This document shows positions 23,369 through 28,447 of a stretch of 64,000 nucleotides of DNA, one piece after another; positions within the stretch are counted from its first letter, which is position 1; every line of letters begins with the position of its first letter. The notes beneath the pieces were generated by a model. It saw only the letters and a program-made list of their open reading frames with translations. It was not told the DNA's origin and did no database searches. Origin of the DNA: Sulfurovaceae bacterium (GTDB lineage Bacteria > Campylobacterota > Campylobacteria > Campylobacterales > Sulfurovaceae); the NCBI GenBank assembly GCA_028714675.1, contig JAQTLV010000003.1, positions 248,001-312,000 on the forward strand, given 5' to 3'. The translations under genes and the position numbers were made by a program.

Positions 23369-23492
23369 GATAGAAGTTTAGCATATGTTTTAGTTAATAA
23401 TGATAAAATTGGATTATATGATAGTGTGGTACCCGAGATAACGGCGGATTTCGCTAATGTTACCCATTCATTGCTAGGTTTTATTATCTGTT

Positions 23493-24653
23493 TTAAGTAT
23501 AATATCTAATAATATTATGTTTTAATTCTTCAAAGTCAAATGTATAACTAAAGTCTTGTTCCAAACCAATATTAATTACATCAATAAATTTCTCTTTAGT
23601 ATACTGTCCGTTGCCATTTCTGTAATCAATTTCTATTGAATCTAATTTTGAGATTAAACATATTGCTTGATATGATTTATCTAAAACACTTGTTTTATTA
23701 TTTGGATGGGCTCTATAAAAATGTTGATTTGGAGTTATAGCAATAATATTTTCAGGGATATCAGCTAATTCTGGAAATTGTGATGATAAAAAAATATGAT
23801 GTGCTTGTGTTGCGGGATATGCATCGAACCTATGAATTTCACTAAAGGAATGAATAGTTTTAACAAGTCTTTTGGCTTTTTCAATTTGATATTTATAAAA
23901 TTTTTCATTATCAATTTCTTTTTCAAAGAATTGTGCATTAAATTCCTCTCTAGTAAGAGATTTATCTTTTTTTACATCCCTCCAATTTGGTCTATTATAA
24001 AGTAAATCATTATAGTTAACAATAGACACTTCACCTGATTTACTACCAAATTTTTTATACTTAAAACTTAAAATATTGAGCATAGGATTAAATATTCGTA
24101 TTGGTTCAAGTTCTTTTGTAATTGCAGTATTTTCAATAATAAAAGCGACATACTTATTTCTTAATTCATACAATGAATTTTTATCTTGTTTATTAAAAAA
24201 ATTATCAAAATATTTCCATATACCACTATCTTTTAACACTTTCTCAAGATACATTGATAAAAAATAAAAAGCATTTCTATCTCTTAAAGAAATATACTCA
24301 ATAAATTCTTTTTTGATGATTTTGTACACATTTGAACGACCATTTTTTTCTTCACTTACCAAACCACTATAAGCTAACATTTTTAAGGGTTGAGAAAAAA
24401 ACTTATCATATTCATTTTCTGCTTTTTTTATATCGGGCTTATTAAATATTTCAGTTACTAACTCATTTGAATAATCACAATATCTAACATCGTTTACACT
24501 AAATAAATCATCTTCATTAATACAGTTTAATATACATTCACAAACCGCACTTAAAACATCTGGTTGCACTTTTTGGTCAAAAAATCTAGCATTATTTGTT
24601 TTTTTAATATCTAAATCAATAGTTTGTAAATAAGCTTTTATAGTATTTATCAT
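23493..24653 (-). CDS. HNH-family type II restriction endonuclease
   Basis: A 386-residue protein, third gene of the restriction-modification island. The C-terminal part has a beta-beta-alpha-metal (HNH) active site: the pair H285-H286, N302 in PENIIAITP, and H311 within NQHFYRAHP. This arrangement resembles, from memory, the nuclease motif of the Alw26I/Eco31I/Esp3I type IIS family, although those enzymes are longer. The N-terminal 270 residues would carry the recognition region and match nothing I know. AAGGA precedes its ATG. It is AT-rich like its neighbours. Its partner is the fused methyltransferase two genes upstream on the same strand. Confidence 0.72.
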   Translation of the reverse strand: MINTIKAYLQTIDLDIKKTNNARFFDQKVQPDVLSAVCECILNCINEDDLFSVNDVRYCDYSNELVTEIFNKPDIKKAENEYDKFFSQPLKMLAYSGLVSEEKNGRSNVYKIIKKEFIEYISLRDRNAFYFLSMYLEKVLKDSGIWKYFDNFFNKQDKNSLYELRNKYVAFIIENTAITKELEPIRIFNPMLNILSFKYKKFGSKSGEVSIVNYNDLLYNRPNWRDVKKDKSLTREEFNAQFFEKEIDNEKFYKYQIEKAKRLVKTIHSFSEIHRFDAYPATQAHHIFLSSQFPELADIPENIIAITPNQHFYRAHPNNKTSVLDKSYQAICLISKLDSIEIDYRNGNGQYTKEKFIDVINIGLEQDFSYTFDFEELKHNIIRYYT

Positions 24654-24673
24654 AAGTTAATATCCTTGCATTA

Positions 24674-25045
24674 TTAAAGTGTTAATCCATAATCAAAATC
24701 ATTAATAAAGCCTGCTGGTACCGTATTTTTTATATTCGTAATATTTTGGATATCACCCATTACAAAATTATGATTCATTACAATATTTTCAACAAACTCA
24801 TTGCAATTAGTACGATGTTCTACACCTGGTCTACCAGCTGTTAATTTAAAATATCCAGGTATAGGAGGATTGTTAATTAAAAAATGTATTCTACCTTCAC
24901 TTCCCCAAGCACCTTGTTCCTCGTTATTTTCCCAATGGATAGATGAAGTATTGTCTGATTTTGCTAGATAACCAATTGCTTTGTAGTATTCACTCTCAGT
25001 TGTAAACTTTATTTGTCCATTCTGTCCATAACTATTTTTATACAT
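24674..25045 (-). CDS. Uncharacterised protein in the restriction-modification operon
   Basis: A 123-residue protein between the methyltransferase and the endonuclease, 16 bases after the first and 20 before the second, with AAGGAA before its ATG. It has no membrane segment or signal. It is rich in Asn, Gly and aromatic residues (for example SIHWENNEEQGAWGSEGR and PPIPGYFKLT) and contains one Cys in HRTNCNEF. It has no helix-turn-helix typical of C (controller) proteins. It could be an accessory subunit of the nuclease, a detached specificity piece or an unrelated passenger; the sequence does not say. Confidence 0.6.
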   Translation of the reverse strand: MYKNSYGQNGQIKFTTESEYYKAIGYLAKSDNTSSIHWENNEEQGAWGSEGRIHFLINNPPIPGYFKLTAGRPGVEHRTNCNEFVENIVMNHNFVMGDIQNITNIKNTVPAGFINDFDYGLTL

Positions 25046-25061
25046 TTGTAATTCCTTTGTA

Positions 25062-27605
25062 TTAGGATATATTTTCTTTTAATAATCCAAAAAATTTAAC
25101 TGAATTATTATCAATATTTAAAGATCTCGTCCCTCTGTTTCTAGCTATTTTATAATATTCTATAAACTCTTCACTACTATAATATTCTAAATGTTCTGAA
25201 GTAACATTTATATTATTTTTTGCTTTTAAAAGTGCAACGGAACCATCAGTAATAGTATCTTTTGGTAAAAATGTTGCTCTTGGATAATAAGTTAAATTTG
25301 GTACTAATACTATATCATTTTGATTTAAATATTTTGAAACTACAAAACTATCAATATCATTTATAAAACAATCATAATCTTCTATATCTTTTATATCATT
25401 ATTATCAATATTTCTTGATTTTAGAACTCTAATTTTACCTTTGCTTAGAGTGTGTTTTTTTGTAATTTGTCTATCTCGGAAACTTTCAAAAATATTCAAT
25501 TCCATTTTATCCGCAATAGCATCAAAAAAGCTATTTCTATATATTAACCAATAAGGAAATTCTTTAGCAAAAATATAGTTTTTATTTTGATATTCAACAC
25601 TATTTGTTATATAGCTTTCAATTTTTATTTTTTCAAATTTATCTTGTTTATAAGTATCTAATAAAAAGCTAATAGTTTCTATTTTGACACCTTTAAAAGC
25701 TTTTTCTCCGTAATCAGTGATTGAGTGTAGATTTGTATTTTCTAATAAATCTCTTGTTTGATTAAACTCTGGTGCGTTAATTAAACTTTTTGGAACTATT
25801 AGTGATACATACTTTGATAATCTTGTTGCTTTTTCTATGAAAAATGAAAACAAGTTATTTGTATCTTTATTTTTACAATTTAATTTATATTTATCTAGTA
25901 AAGTTTTGTTATTTGCAACTTTCCCATAAGGTGGATTTCCAATAATTAAATCGTAAGCTGTACTATTTTCCCACAGTAAAAAATCTGTATGAATAAAGTT
26001 AATCGTGAAATTTTTAGGTATTTTTGTTTTAGACAATAGTATTTTTAATGTATCCAATGAGTCTTTATCGATATCAATAACATCCAAAATAACATCTTGA
26101 ATATCTTTATACTTCTTAAACAATAAAGGTAAAAAGTTTCCAATCCCTACTGATGGCTCTAATATTTTTAAGCTCTTTTTAGTTTTAAAACTAGGTAATT
26201 TATTTATAACATTAAACACTATATCTTCTCTTGTAAAATATGCTTTAGTTTCAGTTCTTTTTATATTTGAAAGTTCTGCAATATTATAAAGAGTATTTAT
26301 ATCGTATTTATGTTCATTATTTGATATAAATGTTCTTAATGTATTCATATCTTCAAGGTTATATTTTTGTATTATCCTATTTATCTCATTGATAGATAGC
26401 ACTTTGTTTTTTAAAGCTTTTTTTATATTGGAGGCAATTTGCTCAAAAATTTTAGTCGGAACCGCTTCACCTATGCAATGCCTTATATTTAACTCTTCTT
26501 GTTTTAGGTACTTTCTCTTTTCTTCTATTGATAAATTATTAAGTGTATCAAAATCTATATTTGACCACTTAAAGTCATTTGGTACTGTCATCATTTGCAT
26601 TAACTCTCTAATGCTAAATACCCTATTGTCAGATGGATGAATTGTACTTTGACTTGCTAAAATATCATTTCTTGTATGAATACAAGGAGCAACTCTATTC
26701 CAATACCATCTTGAATATTTATCACCATTTTTATTTTTGTTAAGTACTATTTCTCCGTTAACAATTCTATGAGGTTGTTTTAATGGATCATTATTATTAA
26801 AAGCAGACCCTCCTTCTTCTAGATTCTCTATCCAAGGTAGCATCTTATTATCAAAACATCTATATGAATGATAAATATCGTCATCATATATTTCCCCCAT
26901 AATCTTTAATGATGGCAAATCACCAATTAATGCTTTTAAAGTTTTTGCTTTTTGTTCTTTTGGGAAAAGTTGATAAGGGCTAATATTGACTAAGTCTTTT
27001 CTAACTCCTATTACTAAAGTTCTTGTTCTACTTGATTGAGCACCATACTCCTTAAAGTTAATTACTTTAGACAGTATATTATAATCACCTGCTAAGTTTA
27101 ACTCAATAGAGTCACCAATTGGTTTATCAATATTATCAATATCCGTACAAATAGTAGTTAAAAATGCTCTTACATTTTCAAAAATGAAAAATTTAGGCTT
27201 GATTTTCTTTATAATTTTAATAGATTCAATAACAAGTGAATTTCTTTTTGTTTCATTATTTTTTTTATGGTTTGCTACTGACATACCTTGACATGGAGGA
27301 GTGGCAACTAATACATCTAAGTTATTTATATTATTGTTTTCTAATTCTTTATAGATTTTATCTTGTATCTCTTTTGCTTCTAAGTCACCTTGTATATAAC
27401 CACTATCAAATTCACATTTATTATTGTACTGTTGTATTTTAATTCTTTTTTCTAAATACTCATTTGTTGCGATACATTTAAAACCTTGTTGTTTAAATCC
27501 ATAACAACCAATGCCAGCACTACTAAAAAGTGAAATATATGTTAATGCTTTTATATCTTTTCCTTGTGTATTGTTAATATAATCAAATAGACTAGGTGTT
27601 TGCAT
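25062..27605 (-). CDS. Fused cytosine-C5 / adenine-N6 DNA methyltransferase
   Basis: An 847-residue protein with two complete methyltransferase domains. Residues about 20-400 are a C5-cytosine enzyme: SAM motif LFSSAGIGCYGFKQQGF, catalytic C105 in TPPCQGMS, E143-N-V in FENVRAF, QSSRTR at 190-195, and the final motif near CIGEAVPTKIFEQIA. Residues about 450-620 are a gamma-type N6-adenine enzyme with motif EPSVGIGN at 483-490 and NPPYG at 557-561. Residues 620-847 look like a target-recognition region. One protein modifying both C and A fits an asymmetric recognition site in which each strand carries a different target base. It is the first gene of the island, with GAGGAAG before the ATG. Confidence 0.88.
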   Translation of the reverse strand: MQTPSLFDYINNTQGKDIKALTYISLFSSAGIGCYGFKQQGFKCIATNEYLEKRIKIQQYNNKCEFDSGYIQGDLEAKEIQDKIYKELENNNINNLDVLVATPPCQGMSVANHKKNNETKRNSLVIESIKIIKKIKPKFFIFENVRAFLTTICTDIDNIDKPIGDSIELNLAGDYNILSKVINFKEYGAQSSRTRTLVIGVRKDLVNISPYQLFPKEQKAKTLKALIGDLPSLKIMGEIYDDDIYHSYRCFDNKMLPWIENLEEGGSAFNNNDPLKQPHRIVNGEIVLNKNKNGDKYSRWYWNRVAPCIHTRNDILASQSTIHPSDNRVFSIRELMQMMTVPNDFKWSNIDFDTLNNLSIEEKRKYLKQEELNIRHCIGEAVPTKIFEQIASNIKKALKNKVLSINEINRIIQKYNLEDMNTLRTFISNNEHKYDINTLYNIAELSNIKRTETKAYFTREDIVFNVINKLPSFKTKKSLKILEPSVGIGNFLPLLFKKYKDIQDVILDVIDIDKDSLDTLKILLSKTKIPKNFTINFIHTDFLLWENSTAYDLIIGNPPYGKVANNKTLLDKYKLNCKNKDTNNLFSFFIEKATRLSKYVSLIVPKSLINAPEFNQTRDLLENTNLHSITDYGEKAFKGVKIETISFLLDTYKQDKFEKIKIESYITNSVEYQNKNYIFAKEFPYWLIYRNSFFDAIADKMELNIFESFRDRQITKKHTLSKGKIRVLKSRNIDNNDIKDIEDYDCFINDIDSFVVSKYLNQNDIVLVPNLTYYPRATFLPKDTITDGSVALLKAKNNINVTSEHLEYYSSEEFIEYYKIARNRGTRSLNIDNNSVKFFGLLKENIS

Positions 27606-27915
27606 AATACTTCCTCATTATATTTTGAAAAAGAATAGCAATTTATTTTTAGTTTATTTAAAAATATGTCATTTTGCAATGATATTTATGTGATTATAAT
27701 TTTGTAATCTTATTTTATCTAAAGTTTAATTTGAATTTTATTATCTTTAAAGTTTGAAAGTGCATTGCTTAGATAACGTTGGACTTGAAAAATGAAGACA
27801 AAGGGATCAAGCGTTGAATTTCCACTTTTTATAGACTTCGTTATCAGGTACGGAGTGACGAATTGTGGTTATGGATTCCTGCCTTCGCAGGAATGACGAT
27901 AGTATCTATCAGATA
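27606..27915. other. Non-coding gap right of the restriction island
   Basis: These 310 bases hold no credible gene. The first 170 are very AT-rich and probably contain the promoter of the methyltransferase operon. An imperfect inverted repeat, GATAACG near 27773 and CGTTATC near 27838, lies in the middle, and a short hairpin repeat follows at 27875. Confidence 0.6.
27875..27894. repeat. Short dispersed-type hairpin repeat
   Basis: ATTCCTGC and GCAGGAAT flank a CTTC loop, within the context ...GGATTCCTGCCTTCGCAGG... that I recall as a common intergenic palindrome in many bacterial genomes. It lies 22 bases past the end of the toxin gene and may double as a transcription stop. Confidence 0.55.
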
Positions 27916-28173
27916 TCATTCATAAACATCTTTGCGATGTCCCACTTTCACCACATAGATGACCAAAATATCATCTTCTATACCATAAAGCACTCTATAG
28001 CTGCCAACTCTTATCCTATATTTCTCTTCGCCACTTAATTTTTTACATCCAGCAGGTCGTGGCTCATGTGCTAGAGAGGCTATCTTGTCAATAACTTTTT
28101 TTAACTCTTTGTTTGGAAGATTTTTTATCTCTTTTTGTGCAGATTTTTTTATCTCAATCTTATAATCTGCCAT
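27916..28173 (-). CDS. RelE/ParE-family toxin
   Basis: An 85-residue toxin of the RelE/ParE superfamily, starting at ATG 28173 (a GTG one codon earlier is also open). It shows the family pattern YKIEIKKSAQKEIKNLP, then PRPAGCKKLSG, YRIRVGSYRVLYGI and a C-terminal VKVGHRKDVYE. RelE members cut mRNA on the ribosome. The basic residues in RIRVGSYRV and the terminal HRKDVY favour that activity over gyrase poisoning, but this is inferred. It overlaps the antitoxin gene by 14 bases. Confidence 0.88.
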   Translation of the reverse strand: MADYKIEIKKSAQKEIKNLPNKELKKVIDKIASLAHEPRPAGCKKLSGEEKYRIRVGSYRVLYGIEDDILVIYVVKVGHRKDVYE

Positions 28174-28384
28174 CACTCTTTAACTCTTGTAAAAATGATT
28201 CAAATGAGATACTAGGCTCTTTTTCTCTCTCTTTGAATGTGCGAAGATCATCACTATCATCGCTAAAAGCATCATGCAATATCTCATTGAGTAGCACTGA
28301 AACAGAAGTTGATGTTTCAACCGCTTTTAGTTTAAGGAGTTTAAGCAAATTATCTTCAAGCGAAACAGTAGTTCTTATGCTCAT
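28160..28384 (-). CDS. Ribbon-helix-helix (CopG-type) antitoxin
   Basis: A 74-residue protein whose N-terminus (SIRTTVSLEDNLLKLLKLKAVE) is the beta-strand and first helix of a ribbon-helix-helix DNA-binding domain. The acidic C-terminal tail would wrap and block the toxin. It precedes the toxin and overlaps it, the normal arrangement that allows autorepression by the complex. AAAGGA lies before its ATG. With its toxin it forms an addictive module next to the restriction island. Confidence 0.85.
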   Translation of the reverse strand: MSIRTTVSLEDNLLKLLKLKAVETSTSVSVLLNEILHDAFSDDSDDLRTFKEREKEPSISFESFLQELKSDGRL

Positions 28385-28447
28385 AATCTATCCTTTATTT
28401 TTTTGTCATTATAGCATAATTTCATCAAATCATCAAGATGATACATT

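Follow-up and report, generated by a model that had tools for sequence, protein, structure and literature searches.

The window, a 64,000-nucleotide stretch of the genome of a Sulfurovaceae bacterium (contig JAQTLV010000003.1, positions 248,001 to 312,000), carries an insert between acpS and radA that holds three minus-strand genes, here called M, O and R, together with a parE-like gene. The features discussed below are as follows.

23385..28445, strand not applicable: insert of 5.06 kb with M-O-R and the parE-like gene, between acpS and radA (empty site in relatives, GC content; edges approximate).
23493..24653, minus strand: R, restriction endonuclease of 386 aa, HpyAV-type, HNH (PADLOC PDLC03488, E 1.8e-97; H285, H286, N302, H311).
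23706..23801, minus strand: HNH active-site region of R, residues 285-316 (alignment and published R.HpyAV residues).
24674..25045, minus strand: O, protein of 123 aa without a family, 16 nt downstream of M and 20 nt upstream of R.
25062..27605, minus strand: M, fused m5C/N6A methyltransferase of 847 aa, HpyAV-type (open reading frame, Pfam, motifs, PADLOC PDLC03277, E 1.2e-241).
25065..26195, minus strand: N6A half of M, residues 471-847 (Pfam PF07669; PDLC03382 at residues 403-843, E 1.1e-100).
26400..27548, minus strand: C5 (m5C) half of M, residues 20-402 (Pfam PF00145 at residues 22-396; PDLC03370 at residues 19-400, E 8.6e-144; motifs).
27291-27293, minus strand: codon of the catalytic C105 of M (motif PPCQG).
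27916-28176, minus strand: ParE/RelE-family toxin gene on the same insert, beside the restriction-modification operon (Pfam PF05016, 7.7e-12).

The operon order was M, O, R, with gaps within 20 nt. Four congeneric relatives (L043, L044, L045 and L048) had an empty site, with acpS and radA about 20-30 nt apart, the GC content of the M-O-R stretch was 23-27% compared with about 35% in the flanks, and the congener L002 carried a 93%-identical copy elsewhere in its genome; these three observations show that the cassette has moved. The edges of the insert were also considered as mobile repeats and rejected as such, the left edge being single-copy and the right edge having just one short repeat that occurs in 13 places. 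At 27873-27900 of the window, and at 12 other places in the genome, lies a short element around TTCCTGCCTTCGCAGGAATGAC that is inverted-repeat-like and contains CCTTC.

The reading frame of M was unbroken from ATG to stop on the minus strand, while the plus strand across the same interval held many stops. The complete C5 and N6 motif sets reported in the sequence-only reading for this 847-residue protein were all found in place: PPCQG at residues 103-107 (with C105), FENV at 142-145 and QSSRTR at 190-195, followed by motif I, EPSVGIGN, at 483-490 and motif IV, NPPYG, at 557-561, with the target-recognition region of the N6A half at the C-terminal side. Pfam agreed, with a C5 DNA methylase domain (residues 22-396, 4.1e-42) and an N6 methylase domain of the Eco57I type (residues 529-636, 7.8e-15), and so did the solved relatives, which were M.HaeIII and M.HhaI for the C5 half and M.TaqI for the N6 half. 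Since the halves were joined identically in full-length relatives at 93%, 91%, 84% and 82% identity, the fusion cannot be put down to chance or to an error in sequencing. M is a genuine and well explained m5C and N6A fusion, a fresh member of an already known family.

That family is the HpyAV type. PADLOC model PDLC03277 (823 positions) matched residues 20-844 of M, and models of 387 and 445 positions matched its C5 and N6 halves, respectively; these three lengths equal the published lengths of M.HpyAV (823 aa), M1.Hin4II (387 aa) and M2.Hin4II (445 aa) (PMC2816704), and the models were presumably built from these proteins or from close relatives. M.HpyAV is itself a true C5-N6A fusion, and R.HpyAV is an HNH enzyme that cleaves at CCTTC(6/5) and is encoded after M in one direction (PMC2816704). 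The window likewise has a single methyltransferase with a full C5 domain and then a full N6A domain, and R follows M in the same orientation, as in the Type IIS system HpyAV of H. pylori 26695 (hp0054/hp0053), whereas O, which lies between M and R in the window, sets the two loci apart. The proteins are close in length (847 and 386 aa in the window, 823 and 419 aa in HpyAV), although the window R is the shorter endonuclease. The likeness of M to M.HpyAV was drawn through the models and published lengths, the identity of about 50% being to other relatives of the same phylum (50-52% to those of the presumed Helicobacteraceae), and none of the loci measured fitted the published HpyAV lengths and residue numbers. 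Hin4II of Haemophilus influenzae, which recognises CCTTC, has a homologous C5 methyltransferase, N6A methyltransferase and endonuclease, and the equal-length models matched the window halves, but its methyltransferases are two separate genes compared with the one fused gene here.

R, the next gene but one after M, supports the same placement. Its residues H285, H286, N302 and H311 were invariant in an alignment of 13 sequences and had a spacing identical to that of H294, H295, N311 and H320 of R.HpyAV, residues which were modelled or mutated in that enzyme and which align with known HNH catalytic residues (PMC2816704). A sequence search found no solved relatives of R, and its predicted fold gave no significant match, the HNH part being poorly modelled (pLDDT < 50 at 268-324). 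In two relatives (L018 and L022) the endonuclease lay in two reading frames beside an HpyAV-type M, which suggests decay of R in some hosts and shows that the endonuclease can decay while M is kept. That the window M is likewise retained only for regulation, next to a non-functional endonuclease, is nevertheless improbable, as the window R is an intact open reading frame of 386 aa with all catalytic residues and is 96% and 80% identical to the intact R of L002 and L003.

The sequence-only reading had affiliated the locus with Alw26I/Esp3I. Enzymes of the Alw26I/Eco31I/Esp3I family act on an asymmetric site, where they modify C in one strand and A in the opposite strand, and in this respect they resemble the HpyAV type. 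The N6 half of M did give a weak match to the adenine methyltransferase model of this family (TIGR02987, 3.4e-12), but it scored 45.9 bits where the curated cut-off is 353.5, so that membership of M was ruled out on score; the endonuclease belongs to a different family, R having no Alw26I-type endonuclease match in Pfam or NCBIfam and matching an HpyAV-like model, and both M and R matched HpyAV-type models strongly. An Alw26I/Eco31I/Esp3I-type system is thus extremely improbable, and that reading of the window locus is already refuted at the level of family models. Instead, M very probably serves as the modifying enzyme in an HpyAV-type restriction-modification system (Type IIS) that was acquired horizontally, with m5C and m6A as its marks, an HNH endonuclease in R and a candidate accessory in O.

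The expectation that such a fusion would be uncommon has to be tempered. Relatives of M (E < 1e-100) were present in 18 of the 397 sampled Campylobacterota genomes, including that of the window, and 10 further homologous systems with a single fused methyltransferase had been listed in 2010 (PMC2816704). The idea that the fusion is needed to keep both marks together was not supported, for the same two methyltransferases are encoded by separate genes in Hin4II (PMC2816704) and on an Acinetobacter towneri plasmid; the fusion is therefore usual yet dispensable. Contig DLUF01000040.1 (L003/L023) held another HpyAV-type M gene with 81% identity over residues 1-535, about 15 kb from the first; it starts near the contig end and is cut by it.

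For the homologue M.HpyAV, the earlier proposal of a Type IIS-like enzyme with an asymmetric site, whose target C and target A lie in opposite strands, has been demonstrated experimentally (CCTTC/GAAGG), and the suggested mapping of m6A and m5C in native DNA has been published with the predicted outcome: in H. pylori 26695, m5C was present at 91.9% of CCTTC and m6A at 96.0% of GAAGG, both assigned to M.HpyAV (PMC3936762). When the window M was compared with its divergent relatives, mean identity in the C5 half was 65% for the core and 59% for the target-recognition region, and in the N6 half it was 49% for the core and 51% for the C-terminal region. A family of mixed specificity would diverge most in its recognition regions, so this pattern speaks for a shared site, and as both recognition regions are conserved like the cores, CCTTC is favoured for the window. 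By homology, then, the recognition site of M is probably CCTTC/GAAGG. In 464 kb of the host genome CCTTC was not avoided (observed/expected 1.03), which lends the site no support, although absence of avoidance would also be expected after recent acquisition. In the same 464 kb CACTG/CAGTG was strongly under-represented (observed/expected 0.49), while it was outside the 12 lowest in two congeners; its scarcity may reflect another restriction system.

An HpyAV-family system with an altered site, for instance one base off CCTTC but still asymmetric and carrying m5C and m6A, is a less likely reading, though one with several points in its favour: M is only about 50% identical to its divergent relatives, one-base site differences were conceded as conceivable for distant homologues by the HpyAV authors (PMC2816704), and in the O-bearing window group R is divergent to an unusual degree, sharing 41-45% identity with its counterparts in the nearest O-less systems although M of those systems is 78-84% identical. 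Against it stand the two recognition regions of M, conserved as strongly as the catalytic cores, and the need for M and R to have a common site. The divergence of R could stem from an exchange of R with O or from fast divergence, both of which are possible; a formal test of R having been swapped separately from M was not rejected either way (AU p = 0.29). With CCTTC/GAAGG as the favoured site, the first half of M would transfer a methyl group to C5 of cytosine on one strand of the asymmetric site and the second half to N6 of adenine on the opposite strand, and R would cut on one side of sites lacking methylation, a few bases away, which would cleave incoming DNA and protect the host; the methyltransferase and endonuclease activities of the window locus are predicted ones.

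O is the sole fresh element of the window locus. Searches of Pfam, NCBIfam, PADLOC and PHROGs gave no significant family match for it. O adjoined an HpyAV-type R in all nine distinct loci (the window, L002, L003, L029, L030, L031, L032, L039 and L099, where L031 and the similar L098 and L103 were counted once). When O was used alone as the query in collections of plasmids, phage records and viral contigs, every locus returned had both M and R of the HpyAV type: an Acinetobacter plasmid (L029), a Psychrobacter plasmid (L030), a phage-collection record from human faeces (L031) and two viral-collection contigs (L032 and L039); the divergent ninth locus, L099, was reached via R. Among the 397 Campylobacterota genomes O occurred in three, always within an M-O-R operon and nowhere else, and among 69 viral-collection loci fetched with the M alignment it was present solely in those that also held an HpyAV-type R. 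Most HpyAV-type loci were without O, including an A. towneri plasmid with an R that closely resembles the one in L029, and the state of O changed 4-5 times on the trees. In L030, M is on the opposite strand and O stays beside R, which links O to R.

Structure prediction for O was of middling confidence (AlphaFold pLDDT 68.6, pTM 0.68). The best Foldseek match, 2cw7, was not significant (E 0.5, TMq 0.52), several of the best viral fold matches were intein-bearing or LAGLIDADG proteins, all with E > 0.1, and the LAGLIDADG motif acid was not conserved across O proteins; the fold of O showed only a non-significant lean to LAGLIDADG/intein homing-endonuclease domains.

Two of the O-bearing loci differed from the window in ways that may be recorded here. 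In L039 (3151-6260) the order was M-R1-O-R2, with one HpyAV-type endonuclease on each side of O, and its O had a C-terminal PcrA/UvrD-tudor-like tail (E 7.5e-05, just below the curated cut-off). L030 (7880-8458) shares with L032 (3245-3802) an extra protein of 185-192 aa, 39% identical between the two loci, in which a PD-(D/E)XK-like pattern was recognised by eye (GEFA...DYDF...VKTET) and for which Pfam and PADLOC gave no match.

O shares its transcription unit with M and R and probably acts as an accessory to R, such as a binding partner or regulator; as a guess, it may bind R or the DNA of R and tune cutting. We regard it as an evenly balanced proposition that a subset of HpyAV-type systems has in O a third component, not recognised before, which works with R as an inhibitor, activator or targeting partner and whose gain accompanied an unusually fast divergence or replacement of R.

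The fusion in the window is settled as an HpyAV type and is not a rarity, and the locus yields, for a Campylobacterota genome, a site that can be tested directly (CCTTC/GAAGG). O is strictly tied to HpyAV-type endonucleases across Campylobacterota, Moraxellaceae plasmids and virus-collection contigs, and control of R by O, if real, would make O a helper of a new kind for Type IIS enzymes.
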